NCBI GenBank assembly: GCA_026874595.1
Contig: CM049313.1
Location: 37,018,159-37,082,158, forward strand
DNA from: Sipunculus nudus
Taxonomy: Eukaryota > Annelida > Sipuncula > Golfingiida > Sipunculidae
Reading direction: 5' to 3'
Length of the DNA stretch: 64,000 bases
Below the pieces are notes generated by a model that searched no databases, was not told the origin of the DNA, and worked only from the letters and a program-made list of their open reading frames with translations. Below, one piece after another: positions 13,040 to 60,651 of the stretch (position 1 is the first letter of the stretch; each line of letters opens with the position of its first letter). The translations under genes and the position numbers were made by a program.

Positions 13040-14500
13040 CCCCCTCTTGTTGTCCCCTGCTTGACTTGACTTAAATATGTTTTAGTTTTTATTTTCCCCT
13101 GAAGATGACTCCTCTTGTCACAGTGGCTGTGTTTTAGTTTTCATTGTCTCCTGAAGATGTCTCCACATATCATAAGTTTTGTTGTGAATTGGGAACAAAA
13201 GGGGAAATTTGTTTTTGTTTTGGAGCCGGTGATCATAAATATCAGACAGACCCTCCAAAACTTATCCCAACCAAGGTATGCATGAGAGCAATCACTGAGC
13301 CAAATTTGAATGAAATCAGATAATATTTAGGTAATTTTTTGCATGGAAACAACTAGGATATCAGCAGAAGCTGACAAAAGCCCTCAGCCAAAACAACAGT
13401 GTTTAGAGGTGGTAACAGTAACAAGTACTAAATATCTGTTCTCATATGGATGTATATCTGTACATGTCTCAGTTATAAATTTAAAATGGAGAGGTATGTA
13501 CCATGAATCATAACAATCCACCAAATGCTTCCTGAAAAATAAGCTTCTAAGTTTTATTCTATTATAAGCTCTGTGACCTTGAAAAGTAGGTCAAGGTCAC
13601 CCATCTTTGAACTTGACCCAGATTTTGTAGATATACGTCTTCACCAAACAAATAAAATTCCTCTTGTGAATCCTTTTAGAGATATCCCGCTCACAAGGCC
13701 AAAGTTGAAAAATCCAAGAAAAATTCATTAAAAATCAGAAATTGCAGATGGCACCCCAAAACTTGTGCAGCAGTTACAGACCATCAGTCCCTATGATCAT
13801 AGTAAAAAAAATTGTGAAAATCCACCCAATGGTTTCTGAGAAATAAGCTTCTAAATGTTTTTTCTATAATCAGCTCTAAAGCGTAGAAAAAGAGGTCAAG
13901 GTCACCCATCTTTGAACTTGACCGAGATTGTGTCAATATACAACTTCACTGAAAAAATAAAATTCCTACAGTGAATCCTTTTAGAGATAGCCCGCTCACA
14001 AGCCCAAAGTTGAAAAAAAAAACGATAAAAATTCATTAAAAATCAGAAATTGTAGGTGGCGCCACCAAACTTGTGAAGCAGGTACAGACTGTCAGTCCCA
14101 ATAATCATAGTAAGTTTTGTGAAAATCCACCAAATGGTTCCTGAGTAATAAGCATCTAAGTGTTTTTCTATAATCAGCTCTAAAATGTAGAAAAATAGGT
14201 CAAGGTCACCCATCTTTGATCTTGACCGAGATTTTGTCGATATACATCTTTAACAAGGAAATAAAATTCTGACGGTGAATCCTTTTCAAAATATCCCGCT
14301 CACAAGGTAAAAGTTAACGGACGCCGGACGGATGGACAGACAGACGGATGGATGGACGGACAGCCAGCTTGGGTGACGACAATAGCCCATCAGCCTAATG
14401 GCTGAGGGCTAAAAACCTGATGGACAGACAGACAGACAGATGGATAGACAGACAAAACCCAAATCAATGTCCCCCATTCTGCGGAAAAGTGGGGGACAAA
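13040..14500 (-). mobile_element. family E repeat element, interrupted by family C
   Basis: The right end has a GACAGACAGACAGATGG tract and then a hairpin: GTCCCCCA (14472 region) pairs with TGGGGGAC, followed by AAAAAG. This resembles the right ends of the other families. The left limit is uncertain; a GTCCCC near 13,051 may be the inverted partner. The sequence to the left (GCATGGAAACAA, ending 13352) and right (CCTGATGGACAGACAG, from 14416) of family C reads as one continuous element, so C appears to have landed inside E. Confidence 0.4.
13353..14415 (-). mobile_element. family C non-autonomous Helitron-like element
   Basis: On the minus strand the 3' end is a small hairpin (TCAGC-ttct-GCTGA), then TATC and CTAG, with T as the next flanking base, which is the Helitron 3' signature. 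The minus-strand 5' end is TTTTTAGCCCTCAGCC; the same AGCCCTCAGCC occurs inverted just inside the other end (near 13380), giving asymmetric terminal inverted repeats. The 5' end itself can fold (AGCCCATCAGCC with GGCTGAGGGCT). The body holds 2.7 copies of a ~305-bp module, each with TCAAGGTCA (13591, 13896, 14200). One module carries GGTGGCGCCACC at 14055. No protein is encoded. Confidence 0.7.
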
Positions 14501-15436
14501 AAGTAAAGACATGCCATACTGGATATATCAACCTTATAGCAATTTAAATGCACCCTAGCTGTTGCATTCCTAACACCAGCCGGACAATGAGTTACACCAT
14601 TACATTAACCATGTTAAACCACATGGATCAGCACCTGCAGCAAAGACTTTTTTAACGGATGGTGCCCATGAGCTGTTGATGAGACTTTCCACTGAATGAG
14701 GATGAAGGTAGCCATATGATAAGAAAATTTTTGAATTTTTAAGCCTCCCTGATTTCATGTTTACATGTGCAGGGTCAAGAATAATCCAGAATGAAGTCAT
14801 TATCTGTTGTTAAAGCATTATAGCACTAATCACTGAGGTTCTATCAAGATTCCATCATTAGGTGTGAACCAGAGGCCTCCTGCTCCACAGTACAACCCCT
14901 TAAACAAGGCTCCTTGTAGGATTTCTACCACTGGATCAAATACTACAAGACATAAATTTAGTTTTACATCACCAAAATAGCCAAAAGATGTCCAATTTTA
15001 GAATGAGTATAATTAATATGCAAAACCATGATCATGCTGACAGCATTTTACTAAAGATATGGAGAGTTGGGGCTGCTAAGCTTTGCTGCATGGTGCTTAA
15101 CTTCATACATTATTTTTATATGCTGAGACCCCTGCTTCTTACAAAATGACTTGTCTAAGAGCCATAGGGTGGGGTCAACACCGTAGGCCTGCTACTGGAA
15201 AAGTGATCTCTATCGGCTCTCTGACCCATAGGGCACCAAACTTAATCATGCTGGTCTCAATGGGTTAGTCCTCTTATAGTGAAGGAAGGGTGTGTGTAGG
15301 CTACAGTATATATGGAATATCCTACATCCTGTCCAGACTGCAATACACAGTTTAAAGTGATGACTGAACTCAGTGATAAGACACATACACATCACCCAGT
15401 AACACCTGCATGACGTTGTTGTCTTCTCCACCAGGG
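14501..15436. other. mostly unrecognised; contains a SINE-like segment
   Basis: Apart from the tRNA-like segment at 14821-14935, no feature is recognised. Short ORFs on the minus strand have no visible domain. Confidence 0.5.
14821..14935 (-). repeat. possible tRNA-derived SINE
   Basis: On the minus strand, AGCCTTGTTTAAGGGGTT looks like box A and GGTTCACACC like box B, followed by a tail ending AGAACCTCAGTGATTAGTGC. The tail is shared with the segment at 1990-2100. Confidence 0.35.
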
Positions 15437-16950
15437 ATGGAACTGGTGGCCCATGGGCCATGACGCTCAGCTGAATTCAAGGAATGTTAAACAATGAGCA
15501 AATGATTGCCAGAGTGCAAATAATTCATGAATTTTGTGAAGAGTCCTTGGAAATGTCTGGTTTACGAGAAAACTCTCCAAGACGGATTAACATGCCAAAT
15601 TTCAGACCAATACTAGGAACCACTCCTAAAATATGAGCAATGTACCCCCAAAAAACCTGTATGGATAGACGCCACAAGAAAACTATTGAAGATGGCACCA
15701 CCAGTCTTGTTCACAAGATGTAGGTGTTGAGGATCGATGAACATGCACATAAACCCAATTCATTGAAGAACCACTAAGACGAACAGATGGCAAATGCACA
15801 GATGAACTCTTCGCTAAAAGTATTGTAGGTTGCGCCACCGGTCGCAATTATGAGATAGAGAGATCCATGGACATGCAGACTTTCAGCACAATACATTCAG
15901 CCACTCCTGAGATATGGGCTGTTATCTAAAAATCACCCAGATCTGTACTGCACAGAAAGGATTGCTGGTGGTGCCACCTGTCTTTGATAGGCACAACAAC
16001 ATAGGTGAAGGAACAACTATGCTGGGTTTCGGAAAGATCTGACCAAGGGTCTCAAAGGAGTTCTCTGGAAACTAAAGCATTTTTTTTGTATTACATTTTA
16101 TTTATTCTGGGGTAACTTACAAGACCCATAACTTTGACAATTTCCATGGAGACTTTCATGGACCTCCTTTGATGTCAAGTTAGAAAATTTCAGGTCCAGC
16201 GGTTATGATTTGTGCCCTGTTAACAGATGACAGATTCTTTAAAATTATAAAAAAAATAGACAAAAAAAACGAAAAAAAATTATCAAAATATAAGTGGGGC
16301 CACCAGTTTGCAGGAACTGATGGAACACTCCATGATCAATATTCATGCACAGAATCATGGTGATCAATGCATTAGTTATTCAGATACTTGAGCTTTTGTA
16401 TCAAAATTTTAATTATTCTGAGGGGTACTTACAAGCCCGATGGCTTGGAGGATCTGAGTAACAGAGACCTCATTTCAGGTTTCCATACAGACTTTTTATG
16501 GACCTCCTTTGATGTCAAGTTAGAAGATTCCAGGTCCAGCAGTTACAAATTGTGCCCTGTAAACAGATGACAGCTTCCTTGAAGGTATCAAAATTAGAGA
16601 GAAAAAAATCATAAAGATTAGAAAAAATTACCGGTGGCGCCACCAGTTTTTAGGAACGGATGGATGACTCCATGATCAAAATTCATGCAAAGAATCATGT
16701 TGATCAAGGCAGTAATTATTCAGATACTGAAGCTTTTGTATAAAAAATTTGATTATTCTAGGGGTACTTAAGAGACCCATAGCTCAGAAAAAAATAGGTA
16801 ACAGAGACCTCATTTCAGGTTATCAGGGAGATTTATCATGGACCTCCCTGGATGTCAAGTTAGAAGATTCCAGGTCCACCTGTTATGATTTGTGCCCTGT
16901 TAACAGACAGCAGGATGGACGACTGAAAAAGGGTGATCGCTATATATACA
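15437..16950 (-). mobile_element. family B element, right end lost
   Basis: The left end shows the palindrome GGCCCATGGGCC followed by ATGACGCTCAGCTGA, the family B left terminus. The right half has about 2.5 copies of the ~345-bp family B module (GGTAACAGAGACCTCATTTC; TTGTGCCCTGTTAACAGA). An exact GGTGGCGCCACC lies at 16633. Three related palindromes with substitutions lie at about 15694, 15833 and 15965. The usual right-end hairpin and CAGCTGAGCTAAAAA are missing after GGTGATCGCTATA, so the end is truncated. Confidence 0.6.
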
Positions 16951-21165: not shown

Positions 21166-23756
21166 AACATCATCCGAGTCTGAGTTCAAGTCTGAGTCCA
21201 GGCTCCATGAGTCTGAGTCTTTGAGGTTCCAGTCCAAGTCCAGTCTGAGTCCAGGCTCAATGAGTCTGAGTCTATGAGGTTCCAGTCCAAGTCCAGTCTG
21301 AGTCCAGGCTCAATGAGTCTGAGTCTATGAGGTTCCAGTCCAAGTCCAGTCTGAGTCCAGGCTCCATGAGTCTGAGTCTATGAGGTTCCAGTCCAAGTCC
21401 AGTCTGAGTCCAGGCTCCATGAGTCTGAGTCTTTGAGGTTCCAGTCCAAGGCCAGTCTGAGTCCAGGCTCCATGAGTCTGAGTCTTTGAGGTTCCAGTCC
21501 AAGTCCAGTCTGAGTCCAGGCTCCATGAGTCTGAGTCTTTGAGGTTCCAGTCCAAGTCCAGTCTTAGTCCAGGCTCCATGAGTCTGAGTCTTTGAGGTTT
21601 CAGTCCAAGTCCAGTCTGAGTCCAGGTTCCATGAGTCTGAGTCTTTGAGGTTCCAGTCCAAGTCCAGTCCAAGTCCAGGCTCCATGAGTCTGAGTCTTTG
21701 AGGTTCCAGTCCAAGTCCAGGCTCCATGAGTCTGAGTCTTTGAGGTTCCAGTCCAAGTCCAGGCTCCATGAGTCTGAGTCTTTGAGGTTCCAGTCAAAGT
21801 CCAGGCTCCATGAGTCTGAGTCTATGAGGTTCCAGTCCAAGTCCAGTCTGAGTCCAGGCTCCATGAGTCTGAGTCTATGAGGTTCCAGTCCAAGTCCAGT
21901 CTGAGTCCAGGCTCCATGAGTCTGAGTCTTTGAGGTTCCAGTCCAAGTCTAGTCTGAGTCCAGGCTCCATGAGTCTGAGTCTTTGAGGTTCCAGTCCAAG
22001 TCCAGTCTGAGTCCAGGCTCCATGAGTCTGAGTCTTTGAGGTTCCAGTCCAAGTCCAGTCCAAATCCAGGCTCCATGAGTCTGAGTCTTTGAGGTTCCAG
22101 TCCAAGTCCAGTCTGAGTCCAGGCTCCATGAGTCTGAGTCTATGAGGTTCCAGTCCAAGTCCAGTCTGAGTCCAGGCTCCATGAGTCTGAGTCTTTGAGG
22201 TTCCAGTCCAAGTCCAGTCTGAGTCCAGGCTCAATGAGTCTGAGTCTTTGAGGTTCCAGTCCAAGTCCAGTCTGAGTCCAGGCTCCATGAGTCTGAGTCT
22301 TTGAGGTTCCAGTCCAAGTCCAGTCTGAGTCCAGGCTCCATGAGTCTGAGTCTTTGAGGTTCCAGTCCAAGTCCAGTCCAAATCCAGGCTCCATGAGTCT
22401 GAGTCTTTGAGGTTCCAGTCCAAGTCCAGTCCGAGTCCAGGCTCCATGAGCCTGAGTCTTTGAGGTTCCAGTCCAAGTCCAGTCTGAGTCCAGGCTCAAT
22501 GAGTCTGAGTCTTTGAGGTTCCAGTCCAAGTCCAGTCTGAGTCCAGGCTCAATGAGTCTGAGTCTATGAGGTTCCAGTCCAAGTCCAGTCTGAGTCCAGG
22601 CTATACATGTCTGAGTCCTTGAGGTTCCAGTCCAAGTCCAGGTTCCATGAGTCTGAGTCCTTGAGGTTCCAGTCCAAGTCCAGTCTGAGTCCAGGCTCCA
22701 TGAGTCTGAGTCTTTGAGGTTCCAGTCCAAGTCCAGTCTGAGTCCAGGCTCCATGAGTCTGAGTCTTTGAGGTTCCAGTCCAAGTCCAGTCTGAGTCCAG
22801 GCTCCATGAGTCTGAGTCTTTGAGGTTCCAGTCCAAGTCCAGTCTGAGTCCAGGCTCCATGAGTCTGAGTCTTTGAGGTTCCAGTCCAAGTCCAGTCCAA
22901 ATCCAGGCTCCATGAGTCTGAGTCTTTGAGGTTCCAGTCCAAGTCCAGTCCAAGTCCAGGCTCCATGAGTCTGAGTCTTTGAGGTTCCAGTCCAAGTCCA
23001 GTCTGAGTCCAGGCTCCATGAGTCTGAGTCTTTGAGGTTCCAGTCCAAGTCCAGTCCAAGTCCAGGCTCCATGAGTCTGAGTCTTTGAGGTTCCAGTCCA
23101 AGTCCAGGCTCCGTGAGTCTGAGTCTTTGAGGTTCCAGTCCAAGTCCAGGCTCCATGAGTCTGAGTCTATGAGGTTCCAGTCCAAGTCCAGTCTGAGTCC
23201 AGGCTATACATGTCTGAGTCCTTGAGGTTCCAGTCCAAGTCCAGTCTGAGTCCAGGTTCCATGAGTCTGAGTCTATGAGGTTCCAGTCCAAGTCCAGTCT
23301 GAGTCCAGGTTCCATGAGTCTGAGTCCTTGAGGTTCCAGTCCAAGTCCAGTCCAAGTCCAGGTTCCATGAGTCTGAGTCCTTGAGGTTCCAGTCCAAGTC
23401 CAGGCTCCATGAGTCTGAGTCTATGAGGTTCCAGTCCAAGTCCAGTCTGAGTCCAGGCTCCATGAGTCTGAGTCTTTGAGGTTCCAGTCCAAGTCCAGGC
23501 TCCATGAGTCTGAGTCTATGAGGTTCCAGTCCAAGTCCAGTCTGAGTCCAGGCTCTACATGTCTGAGTCCTTGAGGTTCCTGTCCAAGTCCAGTCCAAGT
23601 CCAGGTTCCATGTCTGAGTCCTTGAGGTTCCAGTCCAAGTCCAGTCTGAGTCCAGGCTCCATGAGTATGAGTCCTTGAGGTTTCAGTCCAAGTCCACCTT
23701 CCTTGAGTCCGAGTGATCTGGAAATGCAGTCCAAACCTGAGTATGAGTCCAATGAA
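21166..23756. repeat. 53-bp minisatellite (2.6 kb)
   Basis: About 49 copies of a unit built from AGTCC/AGTCT words: GAGTCTGAGTCTTTGAGGTT, then CCAGTCCAAGTCCAGTCTGA, then GTCCAGGCTCCAT. A 42-bp form lacks 11 bases (CAGTCTGAGTC) and occurs singly and in short runs (around 21,700-21,800, 23,100-23,160 and 23,390). The minus strand has no stop codon in any frame of the unit, so overlapping ORFs of up to 391 codons appear; since 53 is not a multiple of three the frame rotates through three peptides, which argues against coding. Decayed AGTCC words continue on both flanks. Confidence 0.97.
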
Positions 23757-28180: not shown

Positions 28181-28229
<49 letters not shown>

Positions 28230-30621: not shown

Positions 30622-30842
30622 AAGATAAAAAAAAATACAGGTGGCGCCACCAGTCTTCAGGAACTGAAGAACCTGATCATAATCAATAAACACATATTTG
30701 GTTTCAAGACACTGGATCAACCACAGCTGAGAGACTGACATAACTGTGTCATTTGATGGCTACAAAACCCTGACACCCGGACGGATGATGGACAAAGCAC
30801 CATCCCTATACCTCAGTTGACTTTCAGTCAGCTGAGCTAAAA
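30622..30842 (-). mobile_element. second family B right-end fragment
   Basis: Begins inside a module with an exact GGTGGCGCCACC at 30640 and ends CTCAGTTGACTTTCAGTCAG, CTGAGCTAAAA. It directly follows the preceding fragment, suggesting a head-to-tail pair or an internal deletion of a dimer. Confidence 0.6.
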
Positions 30843-32162: not shown

Positions 32163-35100
32163 TAATGTCTGGGCTGGGTTATATATACCTGGATAATGTC
32201 TTGGTAGAACTGTTTTGACCTTGATCATGTCCAGGTGGGGCTATACAGACCTGGATCATGCCTGGGTAGGACTGTATTGACCTGGATCATGCCTGGGTAG
32301 GACTGTATAGACCTGGGTCATGCCTGTGTAGGGATGTATAGACCTGGGTCATGCCTGTGTAGGACTGTACAGACCTGGGTCATGCCTGAGTAGGGCTGTA
32401 TAGACCTGGGTCATGTCTTGCTAGGACTGTTTTGACCTGGATCATGTCCAGGTGGGGCTATACAGACATGGGTCATGCCTGATTAGGGCTGTATAGACCT
32501 GGATCATGCATGTGTAGGTACTATATAGACCTTGGTCATGCCTGGGTAGGGTTGTATTGACCTCGGTCATGCCTGTGTAGGGATGTATAGACCTGGGTCA
32601 TGCCTGTGTAGGACTGTACAGACCTGGGTCATGCCTGAGTAGGGCTGTATAGACCTGGGTCATGTCTTGCTACAACTGTTTTGACCTGGATCATGTCAAG
32701 GTGGGGCTATACAGACATGGGTCATGCCTGATTAGGGCTGTATAGACCTAGATCATGCATGTGAAGAACTATATAGACCTGGGTCATGCCTGTGTAGGAC
32801 TATATAGACCTGGATCATGCCTGTGTAGGACTATATATACCTAGGTTATGCCTGATTAGGACTATATAGACCTGGGTCATGCCTGTGTAGGACTGTATAG
32901 ACCTGGGTCATGCCTGGGTAGGACTGAATAGACCTGGGTCATGCCTGTGTAGGTACTATATGGACCTGGGTCATGCCTGGGTAGGGCTGTATAGACTTGG
33001 GTCATGCCTGTGCAGGACTATGTTGACCTGGGTCATGCCTGGGTAGGGCTGTATAGACCTGGGTTATGTCTTGCTAGGACTGTTTTGACCTGGATCATGT
33101 CCAGGTGGGGCTATACAGACATGGGTCATGCCTGATTAGGGCTGTATAGACCTTGATCATGCATGTGTAGGTACTTTATAGACCTGGGTAATGCCTGGGT
33201 AGGGTTGTATTGACCTGGGGCATGCCTGTGTAGGGATGTATAGACCTGGGTCATGCCTGTGTAGGACTGTACAGACCTGGGTCATGCCTGAGTAGGGCTG
33301 TATAGACCTGGGTCATGTCTTGCTAGAACTGTTTTGACCTGGATCATGTCTAGGTGGGGCTATACAGACATGGGTCATGCCTGATTAGGGCTGTATAGAC
33401 TTGGGTCATGCCTGTGCAGGACTATATAGACCTGGGTCATGCCTGGGTAGGGCTGTATAGACCTGGGTCATGCCTGTGTAGGACTGTATAGACCTGGGTC
33501 ATGCCTGTGTAGGTACTATATAGACCTGGGTCATGCCTGTGTAGGTACTATATAGACCTGGGTCATGCCTGGGTAGGGCTGTATAGACCTGGGTCATGCC
33601 TGTGTAGAACTGTATAGACCTGGGTCATGCCTGTGTAGGTACTATTTAGACCTGGGTCATGCCTGGGTAGGGCTGTATAGACCTGGGTCATGCCTGTGTA
33701 GGTACTATATAGACCTAGGTCATGCCTGTGTAGGACTGTTTAGACCTGGGTCATGCCTGTGTAGGACTGTATACACCTAGGTTATTCCTGGACATGGCAG
33801 AATACACCTGGGTAGGGCTGTATATACATGGGTTATGTCTGGGTAGGGCTGAATAGACCTTAGTCATGCCTGGGTATGGCTATTTAGACCTGGGTCATGC
33901 CTAGGTAGGGCTATATACACCTTGGTCCTGCCTGGTCAGGGCTATTTAGACCTAGGTCATGTCTGGGTAGGTACTATATAAACCTGGGTCATGCCTGGGT
34001 AGGGCTGTATAGACCTGGGTCATGCCTGTGTAGGACTGTATACACCTAGGTTATGCCTGGACATGGCAGAATACACCTGGGTAGGGCTGTATATACATGG
34101 GTTATGTCTAGGTAGGGCTATATACACCTTGGTCCTGCCTGGTCAGGGCTATTTAGACCTGGGTCAAGCCTAGGTAGGGCTGTATATAGACCTTGGTCCT
34201 GCCTGGTCAGGGCTATTTAGACCTGGGTCAGGCCTAGGTAGGGCTGTATATAGACCTTGGTCATATGAGCCTGGTCAGGGCTATTTAGACCTGGGTCAAG
34301 CCAAGGTAGGGCTGTATACAGACCTGGATCATGCCTGGGTAGGACTGTATTGACCTGGATCATGCCTGGGTAGGACTGTATAGACCTGGGTCATGCCTGT
34401 GTAGGGATGTATAGACCTGGGTCATGCCTGTGTAGGACTGTACAGACCTGGGTCATGCCTGAGTAGGGCTGTATAGACCTGGGTTATGTCTTGCTAGAAC
34501 TGTTTTGACCTGGATCATGTCCAGGTGGGGCTATACAGACATGGGTCATGCCTGATTAGGGCTGTATAGACCTGGATCATGCCTGTGTAGGTACTATATA
34601 GACCTGGGTCATGCCTGGGTAGGGCTGTATTGACCTGGGTCATGCCTGTGTAGGGATGTATAGACCTGGGTCATGCCTGTGTAGGACTGTACAGACCTGG
34701 GTCATGCCTGAGTAGGGCTGTATAGACCTGGGTCATGTCTTGCTAGAACTGTTTTGACCTGGATAATGTCAAGGTGGGGCTATACAGACATGGGTCATGC
34801 CTGATTAGGGCTGTATAGACCTGGATCATGCATGTGTAGGACTATATAGACCTGGGTCATGCCTGTGTAGGACTATATAGACCTGGGTCATGCCTGTGTA
34901 GGACTATATAGACCTAGGTCATGCCTGATTAGGACTATATAGACCTGGGTCATGCCTGTGTAGGACTGTATAGACCTGGGTCATGCCTGGGTAGGACTGA
35001 ATAGACCTAGGTCATGCCTGTGTAGGACTGCATAGACCTGGGTCATGCCTGTGTAGGTACTATATAGACCTGGGTCATGCCTGGGTAGGGCTGTAGGGAT

Positions 35101-36480
35101 TTGGGTCATGCCTGAATAGGGCTATATAGACCTTAGGCCTGGGTAGGGCTGTTTAGACCTGGGTCATGCCTGTGTAGAACTGTATAGACCTGGGTCATGC
35201 CTGTGTAGGAACTATTTAGACCTGGGTCATGCCTGTGTAGGTACTATATAGACCTGGGTCATGCCTGGGTAGGGCTGTATAGACCTGGGTCATGCCTGTG
35301 TAGGTACTATTTAGACCTGGGTCATGCCTGTGTAGGTACTATATAGACCTGGGTCATGCCTGGGTAGGGCTGTATAGACCTGGGTCATGCCTGTGTAGGT
35401 ACTATATAGACCTAGGTCATGCCTGTGTAGGACTGTTTAGACCTGGGTCATGCCTGTGTAGGACTGTATACACCTAGGTTATTCCTGGACATGGCAGAAT
35501 ACACCTGGGTAGGGCTGTATATACATGGGTTATGTCTGGGTAGGGCTGAATAGACCTTAGTCATGCCTGGGTATGGCTATTTAGACCTGGGTCATGCCCA
35601 GGTAGGGCTATATACACCTTGGTCCTGCCTTGTCAGGGCTATTTAGACCTAGGTCATGTCTTGGTAGGTACTATATAAACCTGGGTCATGCCTGGGTAGG
35701 GCTGTATAGACCTGGGTCATGCCTGTGTAGGACTGTATACACCTAGGTTATGCCTGGACATGGCAGAATACACCTGGGTAGGGCTGTATATACATGGGTT
35801 ATGTCTAGGTAGGGCTATATACACCTTGGTCCTGCCTGGTCAGGGCTATTTAGACCTGGGTCAAGCCTAGGTAGGTCTGTATATAGACCTTGGTCCTGCC
35901 TGGTCAGGGCTATTTAGACCTGGGTCAGGCCTAGGTAGGGCTGTATATAGACCTTGGTCATATGAGCCTGGTCAGGGCTATTTAGACCTGGGTCAAGCCA
36001 AGGTAGGGCTGTATATAGACCTGGATCATGCCTGGGTAGGACTGTATTGACCTGGGTCAAGCCTAGGTAGGGCTGTATATAGACCTTGGTCATGCCTGGG
36101 TAGGGCTATTTAGACCTGTTTCAAGCCTAGGTAGGGCTGTATATAGACCTTGGTCATGCCTGGGTAGGGTTAATTTAGACCTGGGTCAAGCCTTGGTAGG
36201 GCAGTATATAGACCTTGGTCATGCCTGGGTAGGGCTATTTAGACCTGGGTCAAGCCTAGGCAGGGCTGTATATAGACCTTGGTCATGCCTGGGTAGGGCT
36301 ATTTAGACCTGGGTCAAGCCTAGGTAGGGCAGTATATAGACCTTGGTCATGTCTGGGTAGGGCTATTTAGACCTGGGTCAAGCCTAGGTAGGGCTGTATA
36401 TAGACCTTGGTCATGCCTGGGTAGGGCTATTTAGACCTGGGTCATGCCTGCATTGGTAGGGCTGTACGATCCTGGGTCAC
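32163..36480. repeat. 31-bp minisatellite with kilobase-scale internal duplications
   Basis: About 137 copies of a unit near GACCTGGGTCATGCCTGTGT followed by AGGACTGTATA, with length variants from TACTATATA and GTATATAGACC. Rare variants allow segments to be matched. The block with TTATTCCTGGACATGGCAG at 33781 recurs at 35478 (offset 1697); CCTGGGTAGGACTGTATTGA at 34333 recurs at 36031 (offset 1698) and also matches 32261 (offset 2072). The TTGCTA..ACTGTTTTGACC landmark recurs near 32412, 32665, 33068, 33318, 34487 and 34738. So the array grew by nested duplications of roughly 0.25, 0.65 and 1.7-2.1 kb. Unit variety drops in the last ~450 bases, where a two-unit dimer repeats. Confidence 0.97.
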
Positions 36481-40264: not shown

Positions 40265-41401
40265 CTAGAATATGCTTATTCAACAAGCAACTAGGTGTAT
40301 CCGCCAAAATCAGAGTAGGATGGATGAAGTGAGGCATGGATTGAGTGGCAAGGGGAAATAGAGTTCAATGTGTTACATATATGCATGGATGTCTGCCATG
40401 TAAACATGATTGTAGGTGGCGCCACCTGTTATTTGAACGAGAAACTATCCAAGATGTATACACTACAAAATTTCAGGTGGAAAAGTCAAACCACTGCCGA
40501 GATAAGTGATTATTTCCCACAGCAGACAAACAGATGGACGCTGTACAAAAATGGTTGCTGGTGGTGCCACCAGTTTTGTGTATGATAAAGAGCTATTAGA
40601 GATCCAAACACATGCAATATGCATGGATATCCACAGCATGAACATTAATGTAGGTGGTGGCACCTGTCATAAAATTAAAAAAAGCTATCCAGGATGTATA
40701 CGCATGCCAAATTTCTGGTGAATATGTCAAACCACAGCCGAGATATGAGTGATTTTAACCCAAATCAAACAAACAGATGGACACTGTGCAAAAATGGCTG
40801 CAGGTGGCACCACCAGTTTCTTGTATCATAAGGAGCTATGCGAGATCTAAACACATGTAAATTTTCAGGAAGATATGTCAAACCAGTCTGGAGATAAAAG
40901 CATGGATGTCTGTAGCGTGAACATGAATGTAGGTGGTGCCACCTGTCACAAAATCAAAAAAAGCTATCCAGGATGTATACGCATGCCAAATTTCAGGTGA
41001 ATTAGTCAAAACACTGCAGAGATATGAGTGATTTTAACCCAAGGCAGACAAACAGATGGACGCTGTGCAAAAGTGGTTGCATATGGCGCCACCATTTTAA
41101 TGTATGTTATAAAGCTATCCAAGGGCTACATTTGTGCAAAATTTTTCCCAATTGGTCAAACGGTTCTCGAGATATTTGGGTTTATGTGTGGAAACAGATG
41201 CACATATGGATGCTGGGCAGAAAGGAGAGGTCAGAAGTCAACCAAAAATGAGGGCACATCAGTTCACATGTGATCCAATCATAATTCGAAATTTTAAAAA
41301 ATTCTGCCTAGTGGTTACAGATGTTTTCTCCAGAAACCTATGCGGCGGTGGCCTGCAAATGAAAACACAGTATCCGCAAAACTCTATTTTGGTGGATACA
41401 A
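40265..41401 (-). mobile_element. family A non-autonomous Helitron-like element, copy 1
   Basis: The minus-strand 3' end is a hairpin (TGCTT-gttgaat-AAGCA), TATT, CTAG, flanked by T; the 5' end is TTGTATCCACC, flanked by A. Insertion is therefore between A and T without target duplication, as for Helitrons. GTATCCGCC near the left end is the inverse of the right terminus. The interior alternates two palindrome-to-palindrome modules (GTAGGTGGCGCCACCTGT; GGTGGCACCACCAGTTT). An exact GGTGGCGCCACC lies at 40415, with one- or two-base variants at ~40560-41090. ORFs up to 126 codons here have no counterpart in the other copies' frames. Confidence 0.75.
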
Positions 41402-43645: not shown

Positions 43646-44667
43646 CAAGTGACCCTTCGGTCATGGTACTCAGCTGACATGCATGACATTTTGGCCTATC
43701 ATTCATAACTGTTACGAGTTACATCTTCATAAAATTGAAGGCCAATTACCTGTTCCCTATAAGTACTGTAATAATATGGTCTGTTTAAAGCACTCACATT
43801 TTCTAGTTCAGGGCAACATATATGGTGGTTCAGACATTACTATGACCTGACTGATAAAGTCTAAAATAGCAATTAAGCTCATCAAGAATTTAAAAATATA
43901 GCTACGGTGGCATTACAAGTGTCATACAATGAAACAGTCTAAGATCAACATACACAAGCTGAGGTACAGGACTGACAGATTAGGTCTTTATCCGGTTTTA
44001 GCATCCAAAGTGAGACACATGAGTGCAGAGTTAAACTCTTACAGTTTGTGACACTGAATGTCAGGTGTCAGTCTTTAAATCAATCTTGAACATGGATCAT
44101 TTATGAAAGGATTACAATATATAGGTCGCAACACTAGTTTCATAAAACAGATAAATCTATCCAAGTTAAATATAGTAAACTTCAATACATTCCATACCTT
44201 CGTTATTGATCTCAGAATTGTAAAAAATTTTTTACAAAAAATGTACCATTTGCAGTGAAATTTACAAATTTTTGATTAAGTATTTTTGAAGAAATGTTAG
44301 GTCAATTTTGTTTAAATCTTACTGACAGGGAACTATGGGTAAATAAGGAACATAAATTCATTTTTTTTTAGATCCAGTTGTAAACATGTTCAAAAACACT
44401 GAGAGTTCAGAAGATTCTAATTTTCAAAGTGCTTAAAATCATGGTTTTACTGCACAGCTTGTAGAATAAAGGTCAGGTTGACCTAATTTCAGATTTGCTC
44501 AAAATTTTACCCAGATCTGCATGGATAACAACTTTCCAGATTAAGGGGTTATGATTTAAGTTTAGCCCTGCTAATGGATGACTGGTTGGCATGACAACCA
44601 GCTGGAAGGAGGACAAAGAGATTCATCACTTTAGCTAAACATGACTAAAAGTAAGCTGAGCTAAAAA
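43646..44667 (-). mobile_element. family B element, both ends present
   Basis: The left end is CAAGTGACCCTTCGGTCATG with CTCAGCTGA, and the right end is AAGCTGAGCTAAAAA. The usual GACCCATGGGTC palindrome is replaced by GACC-CTTC-GGTC, which still folds. The 1.0-kb body lacks the 345-bp tandem modules except for a decayed last one (ACTTTCCAGATTAAGGGGTT; GTTTAGCCCTGCTAATGGA). Confidence 0.6.
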
Positions 44668-47600: not shown

Positions 47601-47816
47601 ATTTTCAGACTATAACCAGATGAGACAAATCTTATTTATATAAATCAACAGTGCAGTTTCATTTCAAAATGAATGATCATGGCTGTTCCCTGTTATCAAA
47701 ATCATTTCCCAAAAATGAAGCCTACCGACTGTAGATGGTGTTGTTCGGGGGATGACAATGAAATGGTCACAGATAGAGAACCATATTGTTTCTATCTGGA
47801 ACCAATTAATGTCCTC
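44668..47816. other. mostly unrecognised sequence (3.1 kb)
   Basis: No repeat family recognised. It contains a 97-codon ORF at 45177-45470 and the 183-codon ORF listed separately; neither matches a family I know. Confidence 0.5.
47072..47623 (+). CDS. unrecognised 183-codon ORF
   Basis: The longest open frame in the window outside tandem repeats. The composition is not obviously low-complexity: a hydrophobic start (GGVIMLLIGTI), a middle with NTEEMGFSLMARADAILKDL, and a His-rich tail (HHHSHPSHQQ). I recognise no domain, signal peptide or catalytic motif. No upstream splice acceptor or start context decides its reality. It may be chance, a transposon piece or an exon. Confidence 0.15.
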   Translation: MLSISNGKSDGGVIMLLIGTINFHGSVCFGEVAELGNEGSRNDQAQRLYQVSKLTGSNTIHPYVIGLVCGDNDCSSQASLFLLPVQLPADIEMVRLLTFSFQKNLKPALIAVNTEEMGFSLMARADAILKDLSCAKLIIITKHHHSHPSHQQCIIFFHKKICYYRHYKVYAIIRLGHFQTITR

Positions 47817-48547
47817 AACTTCTATAAATCCATTGATGGTTGGATTGTCCTCAACTTCTAAAAATCCATTGATGGTTGAATTGTCCCCAACTTCTATAAA
47901 TCCATTGATGGTTGGATTGGCCCCAAACCTCCTTAAATCCATTGATGGTTGAATTGTCCCCAAATTCTATAAATCCATTGATGGTTGAATTGTCCCCAAC
48001 TTCTATAAATCTATTGATGGTTAAATTGTCCTTAACTTCTATAAATCCATTGATGCCTGGATTGTCCTCAGCTTCTATAAATCCATTGATGGTTGAAATG
48101 TCCCCAACTTCTATAAATCTATTGATGGTTGGATTGTCCTCAATTTCTATAAATCCATTGATGGTTGAATTGTCCCCAACTTCTATAAATCCATTGATGG
48201 TTGAATTGTCCCCAACTTCTATAAATCTATTGATGGTTGAATTGTCCCCAATTTCTTTAAATCCATTGATGGTTGAATTGTCCCCTACTTCTATAAATTA
48301 ATTTATGGCTGGATTGTCCTCAACTTCTATAAATCCATTGATGGTTGGATTGTCCCTAACTTCTATAAATCCATTGATGGTTGGATTGTCCTCAATTTCT
48401 AAAAATCCATTGATGGTTGAATTGTCCCCAACTTATATAAATCCACTGATGGTTGGATTGTCCCCAACTTCTATATATCTATTGATGGTTGGATTGTCCT
48501 CAATTTCTATAAATCTATTGATAGTTGAATTTGGTTCAACTTCTATA
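47817..48547. repeat. 36-bp minisatellite, left part
   Basis: About 20 copies of AAATCCATTGATGGTTGAAT followed by TGTCCCCAACTTCTAT, with G/A (TTGGATTGTCC) and CCT/CCC variants. 36 is a multiple of three, so repeated 12-residue frames appear on both strands; judged non-coding. The array resumes at 49249 after a LINE insertion. Confidence 0.95.
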
Positions 48548-49682: not shown

Positions 49683-50480
49683 CTAGAATACAGGTAGTCA
49701 ACAAGTGACTACTTGTATGCGCAAAAATCAGAGTGGGACGGGTGAAGTGAGGTATGGATTGAGTGGCATGTGGAAATAGAGTGAGGTGTGTTGCATAACA
49801 GCCTGGATGTCTGCAGCCTAAATGTGTATGTCGGTTGTGCCACCTACCACAAAATCCAGAAAGCTGTCCAAGATGTATAAACATGCAAAATTTTAGGCAG
49901 ATAAGTCAAACCACTAATGGGATATGAGTGATTTTAGCCCACGGCAGACAAACATACGGACGCTGTGCAAAAATGGTGGTAGGTGGCGCCACCACTTTTG
50001 TGTATGATTAAGAGCTAAGTGAGATCTATAAATTTAAATGTAGGTGGGGCCACCTGCCATAAAATCAAGAAAGCTGTCCAAGATGTATAAACCTGCAAAA
50101 TTTTAGGTGGATAAGTCAAACCACTGCTGAGATATGAGTGATTTTATCAAAAGGCAGATGAACAGATGGATGCAGTGCAAAAATGGTTGCAGGTGGCGCA
50201 ACCAGTTTTGCGTATGATAAAGAGCTATGGGAGATCTATACACATGCAAAATTTTGGCCCAACTGGTCAAAAGGTTCCCGAGATATGAGCTTGGATGTCT
50301 GCAGCTTAAATGGGATGTAGGTGGCGCCACCTTTCATAAAATCAAGAAAGCTTTTCAAGATGTATACACATGCAAAATTTCAGGTCATGAGTCCAACCAA
50401 TGCAGAGATATGAGGTTTTTTATCACAAGGCAGATGAACAGATGGACACTGTGCAAAAATCTAAGAAAATGGGGTTAGAA
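49683..50480 (-). mobile_element. family A Helitron-like element, copy 2, minus-strand 5' end lost
   Basis: Minus-strand 3' terminus: hairpin GTAGTC-acttgtt-GACTAC region, CTGTATT and CTAG, flanked by T. It has exact GGTGGCGCCACC at 49982 and 50320, plus GGTGGGGCCACC at ~50044. The TTGGCGGATACAA end is absent; after ~50,480 the sequence becomes family D. Confidence 0.65.
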
Positions 50481-50499
50481 AAAAAATAAACAAATGATG

Positions 50500-51083: not shown

Positions 51084-51693
51084 TTACCATGGTGATGTCT
51101 GGACCCACCTGGTTGCACTGAGTGACCTCTTGACTTGGCTGCTGAAACTCAGCATGTTGTCAAATCTGTTTTCAAACACAGAAAGCCTTTTTCAATTTGC
51201 TACAATGCTTTTCTAAAGCTGTATTTACCAAACTTATCTTTATAAAACTGGCAGAATCCTACCATAGAATAATTCTTGTAAAGTTTAAACCAATCAGCTT
51301 AACAGTTTCATCATAAATCAGTGTATAAGCTAGAAGAGTTTAAAATTACATTTTCGCTCCATGATCTATGTTGGTGGTGCCACCTATACCTCAATTTCAG
51401 GTATGACATATGTGACAAACATTGGTATAAAATTTGGTGCTTAAAGCTCTAGCCATTTCTGAGATTTTAATTTTAGTGTGCTTTTTTGGACAAATGACTA
51501 AGTTCAACTTCCTGTAACTCAGCCAAAAATCTCCGAACTAGAACCATTTGAATAAACTTGAAAAAAATTGTTTTAGGGATCATTTCTGTGAAATATTGGA
51601 CAATTTGGCTGGACAGTTTCGGAGAAGAAGATTTTTAAAGCTTTTTTAGCTTTTTCCCTATAAAATCTCAGAAAATGGAGTTAGAAGAAAAAA
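51084..51693. other. unassigned repeat-like sequence
   Basis: Contains GGTGGTGCCACC near 51373 and a tail CTCAGAAAATGGAGTTAGAA that is also found at 50459-50485. It probably belongs to another element family; no ends recognised. Confidence 0.35.
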
Positions 51694-54600
51694 CAAGTGA
51701 CCCATGGGTCATGACGCTCAGCTGACTGGGAAGAGATTCGCAAAAGGAAATTTTATCATCAGAATGGTAGTATATACCCATTCAACTGAAGCATCAAACA
51801 GATTAACCAACAGGCCAAGATTTAGTCTGTATTTATATATCTCAAAAATAGAGAAAAATGTGTAAACTTTTAAAACTAGAATACAGGTAACCGACAAGTG
51901 ACTACATGTATCTGCCAAAATCGGATAGTGAGGCATGGATTGAGTGGCAAGGGGAAATAGAGTGAGGTATGTTGCATATTAGCATGGATGTCTGCAGCCT
52001 AAATGTGTATGTAGGTTGTGCCACCTACCACAAATCCAGAAAGCTGTCCAAGCTGTATACACCTGCAAAATTTTAGGCAGAAAAGTCAAACCACTACATG
52101 TATATGAGCGATTTTTGCTCATGGCAGACAAACAGACAAACACTGTGCAAAAATCTTTGCAGGTAACCCCTCCAGTTTTGTGTATGATAAAGACCTATGT
52201 GAGATCTAAACACATGCACAATTTTGGCCCAATCGGTCAAATGGTTCCTGAGATATGGGCTTGGATGTGTCCAGCGTTAACTAGAATGTAGGTGGCGCCA
52301 CCTGTCATAAAATCAAGAAAGCTGTCCACGATGTATAAACCTGCAAAATTTTAGGCAGTTATGTCGAACCACTACAGAGAAATGAGTAATTTTAGGCCAC
52401 GGCAGACTAACAGACAGACGCTTTGCAAACATTGTTACAGGTGGCGCCACCATTTTTTGTGTATGTTACAGAGCTATCAAAGGGCTACATTTGTATAAAG
52501 TTTATTTCCTGATCGGTCAAACGGTTCCCGAGATATAAGCTTGGATGTCATCAGCGTGAACGTGAACGTAGGTGGCGCCACCTGTCATAAAATCAAGAAA
52601 GCTATCCTGGATGTATACACATGACGAATTTCAGGTGAATTAGTCAATTCACTGCAGAGATATGAGTGATTTTAACCCAAGGCAGATGAACAGATGGACA
52701 CTGTGCAAACATGGTTACAGGTGGCGCCACCATTTTTTGTGTATGTTATAAAGCAATCCAAGGGCTACATTTGTATCAATTTTATTTCCTGATCGGTCAA
52801 ACGGTTCCCGAGATATGAGGGTTTATGAGTGGAAACAGACCCACAAATGGACACTGGATAGAGAGGAAAGGTCAGAGGTCAATGCAAATTGGTTAGGCAC
52901 CAGTTCACATGTGACCCGATAATAGGTGTAAGTTTGGGAAAAATCGGTCCATTAGTCTCCGAAGAGTTCTCTGGAAACGAACGCCGCCGCGGCGGAGGAA
53001 CTCGGTCAAAAACATAGTATCCGCAAAACTTCTTTTTGGCGGATACAAAAATACAGGTGGCTCCACCAGTCTGCAGAAACTAATAAAAACACTTAATGGT
53101 CAATATCCATGCAAAAAATCATGGTGACCTCTGCATTAGTTGTTCAGATACTTCAGTTTTTGTATCAAATTGTCCATTATTCTGAGGGATACTTCGGAGT
53201 CCTATAGCTTGAAGGATATGGGTAACAGAGACCTAATTTCAAGTTTCCACAGGCACCTTTCATGGGCCTCCTTGCATGACAAGAATGAAGATTCTAGGTC
53301 CAGTTGTTGCGATTTGTACCCTGTTGACAGATAACCACATCTTTAAAGGTCTCAAAAAAAAGAAAAAAAATTCATAAAAATTTGAAAAAAAAATAGAGGT
53401 GGCACACCCAGTCTGCAGAAACTGATGGAACAGCTCATGATCAATATGTATGCCGAAAATCATGACCATCAGTGTTGTAGTTATTGAAATACTGCAGTTT
53501 TTGTATCAAATTTTCCATTATTCTGGGGGGGGGGGGGGTATTTTGGACCCATACAGCTTAAAGAATATGGGTAACAGAGACCTAATTTCAAGTTTCCATG
53601 GAGACTTTTCATGGGTCTCCCTGTGTGTCAAGAATGAAGATTCTTGGTCCAGTTTATATGATTTGTGCCCTGTTAACAGATGTTCATATCTTTAAAGGTC
53701 TCAAAAATACAGAAAAATTTCGTAAAAAAAAACGAACAAATACAGGTGGTGCCACCAGTCTGCAGAAACTTATGAAACACTCCATGATCAATATCCATGC
53801 AAACAATTATGGTTATCTCTGCATTAGTTGTTCAGATACTTTAACTTTTGTATCAAATTTTCCATTATTCTGAGCTGTATTTTGGAGTGCCATAGCTCAA
53901 AGGATATGGGTAACAGAGACCAAATTTCAGGTTTCCATGGAGACTTATCATGGGTCTCCCTGTGTGTCAAGAACGAAGATTCTAGGTCCAGTCGTTACGA
54001 TTTGTACCCTGTTGACAGATAAGTACATCCTTAAAGGTCTCAAAAATGGAGAAAACAATTCGTGAACATTGAAAAATACAGGTGGCGCCACCAGTCTGCA
54101 CAAACTGATGAAACATCTCATGATCAATATGTATGTCGAAAATCATGACCATCAGTGATGTAGTTAATGAGATATTGAAGTTTTTGTATGAAATTTTTGA
54201 CTATTCTGGGGGGTAATTTTGGGCCCCATAGCTCGAAGGATATGGGTAACAGAGACCTAATTTCTGGTTTCCATGGAGACTTTTTATAGGTCTCTCAGTG
54301 TGTCGAAAATGAAGATTCTGGGTCCAGTCCTTACGATTTGTGCCACGCTAACAGATGACAGCATCCTCAAAGGTCTCAAAAATAGAGGAAAAAATCGTAA
54401 AAAATCAAACAGTACAGGTGGCACCACCAGTCTGCAGGAACTGATCGAACATCTCATGATCAATATGTATGCCAAAAATGAAGACCATCAGTGATGTAGT
54501 TATTGAGATATTGAAGTTTTTGTATGAAATTTTTTACTATTCTGGGGGGTACTTTGGGGCCCCATAGCTCAAAGGATATGGGTAACAGAGACCTAATTTC

Positions 54601-55110
54601 TGGTTTCCAAGGAGATTTTTCATGGACCTCTCAGTGTGTCAAGAATTAAGATTCTAAGTCCAGTCTTTATGATTTGTGCCTTGTTAACAGATGTTCTCAT
54701 TTTTAAAGGCCTCAAAAATAGAGAAAAAAATTCGTAAAAAATCGAAAAATACAGGTGGCGCCACCAGTCTGCAGGAAGTGATGTAACATCTCATGATCAA
54801 TATGTATGCCAAAAATCATGACCATCAGTCAAGTAGTTAATGAGATATTGAAGTTTTTGTATGAAATTTTTGACTTTTCTGGGGGGTACTTTGGGGCCAC
54901 ATAGCTCGAAGGATATGGGTAACAGAGACCTAATTTCTGGTTTCCAAGGAGATTTTTTATGGACCTCTCAGAATCCCAAGTTACAAGGTTCTAAGTCAAG
55001 CGGTTACGATTTGTGCCTGGTTAACGGACGGACAGACGGACAGACGGACGACGGACAAAGAGTGATCGCTATAGCTCAGATGACTTTCAGTCAGCTGAGC
55101 TAATAAAAAA
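51694..55110 (-). mobile_element. family B element, hosting a nested family A copy
   Basis: The left end CAAGTGACCCATGGGTCATG, CGCTCAGCTGA is complete. The right end is GACGGACAGACGGACAGACG, then the hairpin CTCAGATGACT-ttc-AGTCAGCTGAG and CTAATAAAA. The body from 53049 holds six ~340-bp modules (CAGTCTGCAG-AACTGATG; GGTAACAGAGACCTAATTTC; TTGTGCC-TGTTAACAGA). Exact GGTGGCGCCACC lies at 54081 and 54753. Family A (51876-53048) sits inside the A-rich linker that joins modules; removing it restores a normal linker. No protein is encoded. Confidence 0.75.
51876..53048 (-). mobile_element. family A Helitron-like element, copy 3, nested
   Basis: Left CTAGAATACAGG (minus CTAG|T) and right TTGGCGGATACAA ends are both present. 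Exact palindromes at 52291, 52440, 52571 and 52720. Near the right end CCGCCGCGGCGG (about 52985) forms another palindrome. The right terminus can fold (TATCCGCAAAAC with TTTTTGGCGGATA). Confidence 0.75.
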
Positions 55111-55112
55111 AA

Positions 55113-56664: not shown

Positions 56665-56744
56665 GTAATACATTAATAAAATTTTTGTGCTACACCTAAC
56701 TGAGGAAAATCTGTTTTGATTCAGATGAAAAAAACAGATGATAC

Positions 56745-58699: not shown

Positions 58700-59497
58700 T
58701 CTCCAGGTTTGCAAGTATGGAAAACCAGGAAAATCAAAGACTTCAAACCAATCTCTCATCAATTATCAGAAATATAGAAGACTTCAAAACAATACATCAT
58801 CAATTACCAGAAATATAGAAGACTTCAAAACAATCTCTCATCAATTATCAGAAATATAGAAGACTTCAAAATAATACATCATCAATTATCAGAAATATAG
58901 AAGACTTCAAAACAATCTCTTATCAATTATCAGATACAGAAGACCTCAAAACAATACATCATCAATAATCAGAAATACAGAAGACTTCAAAATAATACAT
59001 CATCAATAATCAGAAATATAGAAGACTTCAAAACAATACATCATCAATAATCAGAAATATAGAAGACTTCAAAATAATACATCATCAATAATCAGAAATA
59101 TAGAAGACTTCAAAACAATCTCTCATCAATTATCAGAAATATAGAAGACTTCAAGACAATCTCTTATCAATAATCAGATACAGAAGACCTAAAAAAAACA
59201 CATCATCAATAATCAGAAATATAGAAGACTTCAAAATAATACATCATAAATAATCAGAAATATAGAAGACTTCAAAACAATACATCATCAATTATCAGAA
59301 ATATAGAAGACTTCAAAACAATCTCTTATCAATTATCAGATACAGAAGACCTCAAAACAACACATCATCAATAATCGGAAATATAGAAGACTTCAAAATA
59401 ATACATCATCAATAATCAGAAATATAGAAGACCTGAAAACAATACACCATCAATAATCAGAAATATAGAAGACTTCAAAACAATACATCATCAATAA
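58700..59497. repeat. 41-bp minisatellite, left part
   Basis: About 19 copies of CAGAAATATAGAAGACTTCA followed by AAACAATCTCTCATCAATTAT. A diverged CAGATACAGAAGACCTCA unit returns at intervals (58931, 59173, 59337), indicating multi-unit duplications. Interrupted by family A copy 4 and resumed at 60651. Confidence 0.95.
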
Positions 59498-60651
59498 CTA
59501 GAATACGGGTAGTCGATAAGCGACTACGTGTATCCGCCTAAATCAGAGTGGAACGGGTGAAGTGAGGCATGGATTGAGTGGCAAGGGGAAATAGAGTGAA
59601 GTGTTGCATATTAGCATGGATGTCTGCAGCCAAATGGTGTATGTAGGTTGCGCCACCTACCACAAAATCCAGAAAGCTGTCCAAGTTGTATACAAATGCA
59701 AAATTTGGGGCAGATAAGTCAAACCACTATATGTTTATGAGTGATTTTAGCCCGTGGCAGACAAACAGAAGGACGCTGTGCAAAAATGGTTGAAGGTGGC
59801 GCCACCAGTTTTGCCTATGAAAAAGAGCTATGTGAGAACTATACACATGCAAAACTTTGGCCCAATCGGTCAAACGGTTCCCAAGAAATGAGCTTGGATG
59901 TTTGCTGCATAAACTAGAATGCAGGTGGCGCCACCTATCATAAAATCAAGAGAGCTGTCGGGGATGTATAAACCTGCAAAATTTTAGGCAGATATGTCAA
60001 ACCACTGCCGAGATATGAGTGATTTTATCCCATGGCAGACAAACAGATGGCAGCTGTGCAAAAATGGCTGCAGGTGGCGCCACCAGTTTTGTGTATGATA
60101 AAGAGCTATGTGAGATCTATACACATGCACATACACGAGATATGAGCTTGGATGTCTGCAGCGTAAACGTGAATGTAGGTGGGGCCACCTGTCATAAAAT
60201 CAGAAAAGCTATCCAGGATGTATACGCATGCCAAATTTCAGGTGAATTAGTCAAATCACTGCAGAGATATGAGTGATTTTAACCCAAGGCAGACAAACAG
60301 ATGGACACTGTGAAAACATGGTTGCAGGTGGCGCCACCATTTTTTGTGTATGTTATAAAGCTCTCCAAGGGCTACATTTGTGCAAAAAAATTTTCCTGAT
60401 CCGTCAAACGGTTCCCGAGATATGGCATGTGGGTTTATGTGTGGAAACAGACACACAAACGGACGCAGAGCGCAGAGGAAAGGTCGGAGGTCAAAACAAA
60501 ATTGGGGCGTAGCAGTTCACATGTGACCCGAACATAATCCCTGGTTTCGTAAAATTTCCGCCCAGCGGTTATGGAGGAGTTCTCCGGACACCTAAGCGGC
60601 GGCGTAAACTGAAAACATAGTATCCGCAAAACTCTGTTTTGGCGGATACAA
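59498..60651 (-). mobile_element. family A Helitron-like element, copy 4, best preserved
   Basis: Minus-strand 3' end: GTAGTCG-cttat-CGACTAC hairpin, CCGTATT, CTAG, then T. Minus-strand 5' end: TTGTATCCGCC after A. The flanks (CATCATCAATAA and TCAGAAATATAG) join to give an intact minisatellite unit, so insertion was between A and T with no duplication or loss. GTATCCGCC recurs 30 bases inside the left end as the inverse of the right terminus. The right end also folds (TATCCGCAAAAC with GTTTTGGCGGATA). Exact GGTGGCGCCACC at 59795, 59923, 60073 and 60327. No ORF encodes a Rep/helicase. Confidence 0.85.

Follow-up and report, generated by a model that had tools for sequence, protein, structure and literature searches.

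The elements considered here, non-autonomous Helentrons (HINEs) of Sipunculus nudus, share non-coding Helentron ends, subterminal inverted repeats and a hairpin with Cg_HINE of Crassostrea gigas and with Pearl CvA/CvE/CvG, MgE and DTC84, as these are presented in parts of PMC7492417 and PMC11136912. They lie in a stretch of 64,000 nucleotides (the window; C8:37,018,159-37,082,158 of the assembly of a 1.43-Gb genome), where the 12-bp palindrome GGTGGCGCCACC recurs in their central tandem modules. In the sections of PMC7492417 devoted to it, the Cg_HINE group is also credited with a GTCC-type microsatellite, central tandem repeats (~140-180 bp in the oyster), related ends combined with different repeats and two arrays per element, all of which have their like here, and two conserved segments are common to the oyster clusters CL1/2/10/13 and the otherwise different CL4. 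DINE-1 and HINE-Mo, in the relevant part of PMC4067079, resemble our elements in that their subterminal inverted repeats are palindromic and begin 2-4 bp inside the 5' end, in a palindrome near the 3' end and in their optional central repeats. The HINE hallmarks that our elements match are set out in PMC4067079 and PMC7492417.

The differences are of several kinds. Neither GGTGGCGCCACC nor a shared palindrome figures in those sections of the oyster description, whose authors were unable to connect Cg_HINE with a coding Helentron (PMC7492417), whereas here two HINE types share their 3' ends with coding ones; the 13 largest Cg_HINE clusters hold 32,582 monomers (PMC7492417), compared with 111,729 exact palindromes in the larger genome of S. 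nudus. Unlike typical Helentrons, family A has a CTAG end and an A/T placement, as in the P. infestans proto-Helentron (PMC4067079, in part). In Caenorhabditis, according to a portion of PMC6927752, 61.4% of the C. elegans heat-shock elements lie in Helitrons, rolling-circle elements with clustered copies of a transcription-factor site, as ours may be; HSF-1 and its binding were shown there, whereas the GGTGGCGCCACC site is putative and read from sequence alone. The HINE class with its central repeats (PMC7492417, PMC8268682, PMC11136912) and the spread of transcription-factor sites by Helitrons (PMC6927752) are thus already known, as far as these sources bear on them.

The palindrome, its modules and their carriers

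The window holds 16 exact copies of GGTGGCGCCACC, against none in 100 dinucleotide-preserving shuffles, which bears out an earlier, sequence-only reading that such a 12-mer exceeds chance in 64 kb. All 16 copies claimed in that reading are present, 14 of them at its coordinates and two displaced by one base, and its many one-base variants can be put at 29 sites with at most one mismatch (shuffle mean with one mismatch, 0.04). The genome-wide count that it proposed gives 111,729 exact copies against 14 of the reversed motif, or 218,178 against 575 with up to one mismatch. Among the palindromic 12-mers of the window GGTGGCGCCACC ranks third, behind both (AT)n phases. The window is without a match in Rfam at gathering thresholds. 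The exact sites are as follows.

14055..14066, + strand: family C module, in an array of 305-bp units (13515-14306)
16633..16644, + strand: B-like module downstream of three D-type modules (array 16141-16907)
30640..30651, + strand: lone B-like module
40415..40426, + strand: A1 module
49982..49993, + strand: A2-like module
50320..50331, + strand: A1 module
52291..52302, + strand: A1 module
52440..52451, + strand: A3 module
52571..52582, + strand: A1 module
52720..52731, + strand: A3 module
54081..54092, + strand: B module
54754..54765, + strand: B module (previously given as 54753)
59795..59806, + strand: A2 module
59924..59935, + strand: A1 module (previously given as 59923)
60073..60084, + strand: A2 module
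60327..60338, + strand: A3 module

Across 43 stretches including the window, 21 of the 37 one-mismatch copies are transitions of the central CpG (12 GGTGGTGCCACC and 9 GGTGGCACCACC), which is ordinary CpG decay; the loci L003, L006, L019 and L020 were left out of the family, variant and exact-copy counts as overlapping. That variants change one half only, as had been pointed out, is true, and it holds for any single change, so that it marks no special property. No compensatory change from half to half was seen in these stretches (0 of 25 two-mismatch sites still palindromic), which is uninformative because fewer than one such site is expected by our estimate.

The modules had been assigned to three unrelated element families. 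The termini of A, B and C do differ, but the modules themselves are homologous: with the palindrome removed, flank alignments stand out from 200 shuffles for A1-D (z 19.9), G-B (17.5), A2-C (6.7), A3-E (6.6), H-G (6.3) and A2-H (5.9), in a test of 105 pairs in which many single pairs were non-significant. The eight module-family consensuses align nearly without gaps, and share a second box, (T)GAGATATnAG, at a near-fixed distance of ~+76 bp past the palindrome (its GAG at +71 to +78), which in A1 is conserved nearly as well as the palindrome. A joint score for the five non-A families in this alignment was reached by 3 of 2,000 shuffles, with B and E non-significant when taken singly (6/10 matches each). 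The alignments indicate that the modules of all families are linked by homology and go back to one ancestral module of ~130-340 bp with GGTGGCGCCACC as its conserved core, so that homology across families, which the sequence-only reading had named as evidence against itself, is what we find for the modules. Seven of the eight consensuses carry exact GGTGGCGCCACC and D is off by a CpG transition; this is partly by construction, because the families were defined from palindrome-bearing copies, and leaves the homology unaffected. Outside L047-L087, 61 of 62 exact palindromes examined fall in these module families, and the remaining one, cut by the locus end on its + side, is B-like by eye.

GGTGGCGCCACC is carried by HINEs that lie on the minus strand and have tandem modules in their centre. 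Those of the window, together with the D-type element, are listed here.

59498..60651, - strand: complete family A HINE, from 5' TTGTATCCGCC... to ...TATTCTAG 3', interrupting a 41-bp minisatellite
51876..53048, - strand: family A HINE nested in a B element, with CTAGAAT at 51876 and GGCGGATACAA ending at 53048
40265..41401, - strand: family A HINE, with CTAGAAT at 40265 and GGTGGATACAA ending at 41401
49683..50460, - strand: family A HINE, with CTAGAAT at 49683 and modules; high-side end approximate
51692..55102, - strand: family B HINE, read as a single element hosting A, with 3' end TCAGCTGAGCGTCATGACCCATGGGTCACTTGTT and 5' hairpin TAGCTCAGCTGACTGAAAGTCATCTGAGCTA
15441..16945, - strand: D-type HINE, 3' end with GGCCCATGGGCC; high end and membership of the B-like array provisional
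13515..14411, - strand: family C modules, GGAC-type microsatellite and terminal hairpin; low end approximate

In minus-strand orientation, family A has a TTGTATCCGCCAAAACAGAGTTTTGCGGATAC hairpin, then the tandem modules, ACTCTGATTT(A/T)GGCGGATAC, another hairpin and finally TATTCTAG. The hairpin ends of families B and C are different, and a GTCC/GGAC microsatellite is present in them. When the 35-bp flanks of 59498-60651 are joined, the minisatellite is restored at 67 of 70 positions without target duplication. The insertion point lies between A and T, with a junction AA that leaves A|T or A|A possible, and by eye the A element of L094 has the same A and T neighbours (n=2 insertion sites in all). 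The subterminal inverted repeats of family A (59529-59542 and 60637-60650) are 93% complementary over 14 bp. The 5' hairpins fold at -10.9 (A) and -10.6 kcal/mol (B), and the 3' hairpin of A at -5.8 kcal/mol (z -4.2); the 3' palindrome of B folds weakly (-3.2 kcal/mol, z -0.2), so that B has a HINE-like hairpin at its 5' end only. The longest of the frames that begin within the A element (1,154 bp) has 85 aa, in line with the non-coding nature of HINEs, and central tandem repeats are present, as HINEs may have them. An assignment to canonical Helitrons, which have 5' TC, 3' CTRR and an A|T target, was rejected: CTAG and A|T would suit family A, whose 5' end, however, is TT and which has subterminal inverted repeats. 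The genome has 15 occurrences of a 29-bp piece of the A-to-B junction, which suggests that the A-in-B composite moved or was duplicated.

Conservation in multiplying elements and in landed copies

Because copies chosen by the palindrome cannot answer the conservation question, modules were chosen by their flank: 40 modules of A1, picked by the directly adjacent 26-mer among 100 places listed, and 20 of 100 listed places each for E and F, ascertained 39 and 25 bp away. We call a substitution shared when it is in at least two copies, having been passed on by multiplying elements, and private when it is in one copy, in which case it mostly dates from after insertion. In A1, 24 of 40 copies have the exact palindrome; 12-column windows elsewhere average 27% and peak at 57.5%, and none of the 182 does as well. 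At non-CpG columns shared substitutions are 12-fold rarer in the palindrome (3/399, 0.75%) than in the flank (712/7,559, 9.4%), whereas private substitutions occur at 1.75% (7/399) and 1.68% (127/7,559), respectively. At CpG columns shared changes amount to 12.5% in the palindrome and 31% in the flank, and the two halves behave alike, with 4 substitutions in GGTGG and 6 in CCACC by column counts. Family E has shared changes at 2/198 (1.0%) against 134/2,938 in the flank (4.6%), with the palindrome exact in 13 of 20 copies and 4 of 127 windows as good; its private changes in the palindrome (11/198) are inflated by two truncated or misaligned rows that were retained (L097, L112). Family F has no shared change in 195 palindrome positions, against 40/2,779 (1.4%) in the flank.

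Since shared changes are scarce and private ones equal, GGTGGCGCCACC persists in the mobile lineage and drifts once a copy has landed; the plain reading for contig C1 is that the palindrome is under selection on the element while mobile and under none on the landed copy. Decay at the pace of the flanks, which had been named as grounds for giving up a function, therefore applies to landed copies, and in the multiplying lineage the palindrome is kept.

Candidate users of the palindrome

A sister class of HINEs with related terminal hairpins (L012:1700-3050 and L016:7447-9420) lacks GGTGGCGCCACC and carries one AGGTCAnnnTGACCT per ~156-bp module; a site of the AGGTCAnnnTGACCT type is also found at window position 44470. 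AGGTCAnnnTGACCT is an inverted repeat of AGGTCA with a 3-bp spacer (IR3), the consensus oestrogen response element, which the sister modules have in exact form; GGTGGCGCCACC is no such site. Genome-wide, exact AGGTCAnnnTGACCT occurs 13,608 times, a total over HINEs and all other sequence, against 93 for the reversed control, and its half-sites with a 4-bp spacer occur 131 times against 171 for the control, so that the 3-bp spacing is specific. In 19 modules from the two arrays (39 IR3-homologous rows less 3 array-end fragments and 17 rows from other loci) identity is 0.93 in the half-sites, 0.77 in the flank and 0.60 in the spacer, and none of 88 equally masked windows is as good. A single array contains both CCA and TGG as spacers, which are reverse complements. 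Half-sites that are kept, at a fixed 3-bp spacing and with a free spacer in two arrays, look like the signature of a nuclear-receptor dimer site, and the genome has 67 matches to the nuclear-receptor DNA-binding domain (zf-C4). In text searches of the open-access literature we found no report of GGTGGCGCCACC or AGGTCAnnnTGACCT in HINE repeats, and for the 12-mer GGTGGCGCCACC an unrelated chitinase match only; this is weak evidence of novelty, because the searches covered open-access text alone. As a separate observation, the family C modules at window 13588, 13893 and 14197 each have AGGTCAAGGTCACC and, 11 bp on, TTGACC; TCAAGGTCA, within AGGTCAAGGTCACC, is presumably an ERR/SF-1-like extended half-site.

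By analogy with this class, we see an even chance that GGTGGCGCCACC is a site for a symmetric (dimeric) host nuclear protein that helps the element propagate, for which the heat-shock elements in Helitrons of C. elegans (PMC6927752) are a precedent. Such a protein would bind double-stranded GGTGGCGCCACC in the modules, and its binding may aid propagation, for instance if it holds chromatin open at the donor copy or sustains germ-line activity of that copy; after landing, the binding would be needed no longer. This explanation is preferred because the sister class carries a nuclear-receptor palindrome likewise one per module, and since modules of the superfamily carry recognisable dimer-type sites, a dimeric host protein would be the likeliest user of GGTGGCGCCACC. 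The view of the sequence-only reading that function keeps the palindrome, for example as a dimeric protein site, holds up to this extent: more than chance keeps it, and a dimeric site is the best fit. A wider proposal, which we consider tentative and rather more doubtful, is that the central repeats are putative docking arrays for host transcription factors, with one dimeric site per module (IR3 in one class, GGTGGCGCCACC in the others examined), kept by selection on multiplying elements.

A number of observations weigh against the dimeric protein. The IR3 conservation comes from two arrays and a subset picked after the sites were seen; in the 39 pooled rows the half-sites are 0.79 identical against 0.70 for the flank, with 17 of 87 windows as good or better, and the pooled site does not stand out because B modules hold the degenerate GGGTAACAGAGACCT. 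IR3 modules and GGTGGCGCCACC modules are different classes, which makes the analogy indirect. Family F is young, with the palindrome exact in 13 of 20 copies, 80 of 113 windows as good or better and a contribution from CpG loss, and in A1 equally few shared changes are seen in 5 of 172 ten-column windows. Smaller first sets, built by flank hidden Markov models from few copies per family (window, random stretches and motif-ascertained loci), had a mixed outcome: palindrome 0.74 against 0.76 in E and 0.896 against 0.906 in C, with 29/113 windows as good in A2 and 21/113 in B. The palindrome is not the top conserved block in every single family, all 80 copies of the A1, E and F samples come from contig C1, and shared substitutions are non-independent events. 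Finally, gene conversion among arrays could also hold a block uniform.

This last point belongs to an explanation without any protein site, in which tandem modules and element copies would stay uniform by exchanging sequence, preferentially at the palindrome, through gene conversion, template switching or unequal crossing-over. The modules do stand in tandem arrays and in nested and composite copies, A1 and A2 modules alternate inside one element, and the oyster papers, where they treat repeat origin, invoke such exchange or stem-loop amplification (PMC7492417, PMC8268682). However, private substitutions are equally frequent inside and outside the palindrome, so that landed copies are not being corrected; the conservation spans families whose flanks have diverged to weak similarity; and the two IR3 arrays keep half-sites and not the spacer, which homogenisation would not do. 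We regard exchange as an unlikely explanation.

A host protein of another kind could also be considered. Together with the two bases before it, GGTGGCGCCACC would be a double CTCF-type core, YAGGTGGCGC on one strand and nearly so on the other, and the HINEs might spread putative sites for CTCF, an architectural protein of the host. Y-A precedes GGTGG in 8 of 8 family consensuses and in 49 of 53 exact copies (43 stretches), YAGGTGGCGC agrees at 10 of 10 positions with YAGRKGGCRS, a portion of the human consensus CCASYAGRKGGCRS as quoted in a part of PMC6746451, and the genome encodes a CTCF relative: across 11 fingers the identity is 55-56%, recognition helices 3 and 5 are unchanged, and helix 4 has a single difference. 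On the other hand, the CCA part of CCASYAGRKGGCRS is missing from the family consensuses compared, so that the full consensus is not reached, the terminal ACC, which one CTCF site should not need, is kept equally well, and the overlapping cores could hardly both be filled together. The landed copies are unprotected, so that no host use is visible. A text search of the literature for AGGTGGCGC with CTCF yielded nothing that we use as support. Judged on the motif match, CTCF seems quite improbable and a weaker candidate than a dimeric host protein. A binder of the palindrome specific to this lineage might come from clustered C2H2 genes; among the matches listed, many C2H2 zinc fingers cluster on C16, C9, C7 and C11.

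The sequence-only reading had also thought of use in mobilisation or module amplification, which would make the palindrome a cis signal for the Helentron Rep-helicase. This bears on the coding Helentrons, for whose Helitron_like_N domain (PF14214) the genome has at least 143 matches (150 of 195 candidates scored). One of them, L040 on C17, has an open frame of 2,342 aa with PF14214 (Rep) and PF05970 (PIF1 helicase) above the cut-off; Exo_endo_phos scores 20.5 bits there against a cut-off of 24.5 and is above it in L039, as is Exo_endo_phos_2 in L041. The 1,027 bp of 3' non-coding sequence of L040 are 98.6-98.8% identical to those of L088 and L089, the likeness ending at ...TCAGCTGAGCATCATGACCCATGGGTCACTTGTTT, and the B element of the window, which terminates in ...TCAGCTGAGCGTCATGACCCATGGGTCACTTGTTTT, has its 3' end in common with these three. 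In L090 and L091 there is the final part of a related frame (58-78% identical), and of L093 only the 3' end was seen; the GGCCCATGGGCC-type 3' end of these three is that of the D element at 15441, shared down to the preceding CTTGAATT. L040/L088/L089 and L090/L091/L093 may thus be two types of candidate autonomous partners for two HINE types of the window. No coding partner was found for families A and C, and L092 and L095 showed neither a coding Helentron 3' end nor its frame.

In the stretches examined these coding Helentrons have no GGTGGCGCCACC of their own: none lies in the body of L040, in 2.2 kb at the 3' end of L088-L091 and L093, or in 10 kb from each of two relatives, L039 and L041. 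One site with two mismatches lies past the 3' end of L093; the exact copy found upstream of the L040 frame is inside an A-type element; and the 7 exact copies in L094 (C6:53647700-53649900) all lie inside a complete A-type HINE that interrupts a coding Helentron frame. Because coding Helentrons with the same 3' ends do without it, GGTGGCGCCACC is probably not an obligatory mobilisation site, and the case for mobilisation is weakened for the B-type and D-type ends alike. A hairpin function of the palindrome was considered and is disfavoured by poor single-strand folding, which also weakens module amplification by a hairpin: the 12-mer folds at -1.3 kcal/mol, in contrast to the hairpins at the 5' ends described above, and 90 of 200 shuffles do as well; with flank it reaches -3.4 in A1 (10/200 shuffles as good) and -2.4 in B (73/200). 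That conservation is seen in the multiplying lineage only, and that the exact copies examined lie, but for the one placed by eye, in mobile-element module families, would suit a signal for Rep-helicase; in view of the palindrome-free coding Helentrons, of L094, whose copies were brought by the interrupting element, and of the folding, we hold such a signal to be very unlikely.

Genomic setting and meaning

Two further observations concern the surroundings of the elements. Over domains of ~0.1-1 Mb on C1, HINEs of A, B, E and F tend to point the same way: cross-family pairs 20-200 kb apart have the same orientation in 71-78% of cases, against 52% when shuffled, and none of 400 shuffles was as high. 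These data comprise the first 100 places listed per family, reaching 11.4 Mb for A and 8.9 Mb for B. The agreement stems from C1:0-5.3 Mb (G000), a boundary chosen after the data were seen, and beyond it falls to 47-58%, so that a general Mb-scale orientation rule is not borne out past 5.3 Mb. Replication-dependent orientation is described, in the part of PMC5371812 concerned, for IS200/IS605 elements, which have single-strand intermediates. The window is also rich in long minisatellites with units of 26-53 bp, at 1-1853, 4303-5452, 7136-8001, 9075-10399, 21189-23696, 32182-36450, 47810-48531 and 58737-59497.

The oyster HINE paper leaves open, where it discusses them, the origin of the repeats and which coding Helentrons move the elements (PMC7492417). 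The present case ties two HINE types to coding Helentrons through their 3' ends, and it offers a concrete, testable reason for tandem repeats, namely a putative protein site kept by selection on the element. The split between shared and private substitutions is a way to see element-level selection from sequence alone. If the docking-site interpretation is true, it would explain the persistence of satellite-like repeats inside HINEs. If a host factor exists, the genome would hold a very large transposon-borne set of one exact binding motif, with more than 100,000 exact sites sown in one animal genome, unprotected after landing and available to host regulation.

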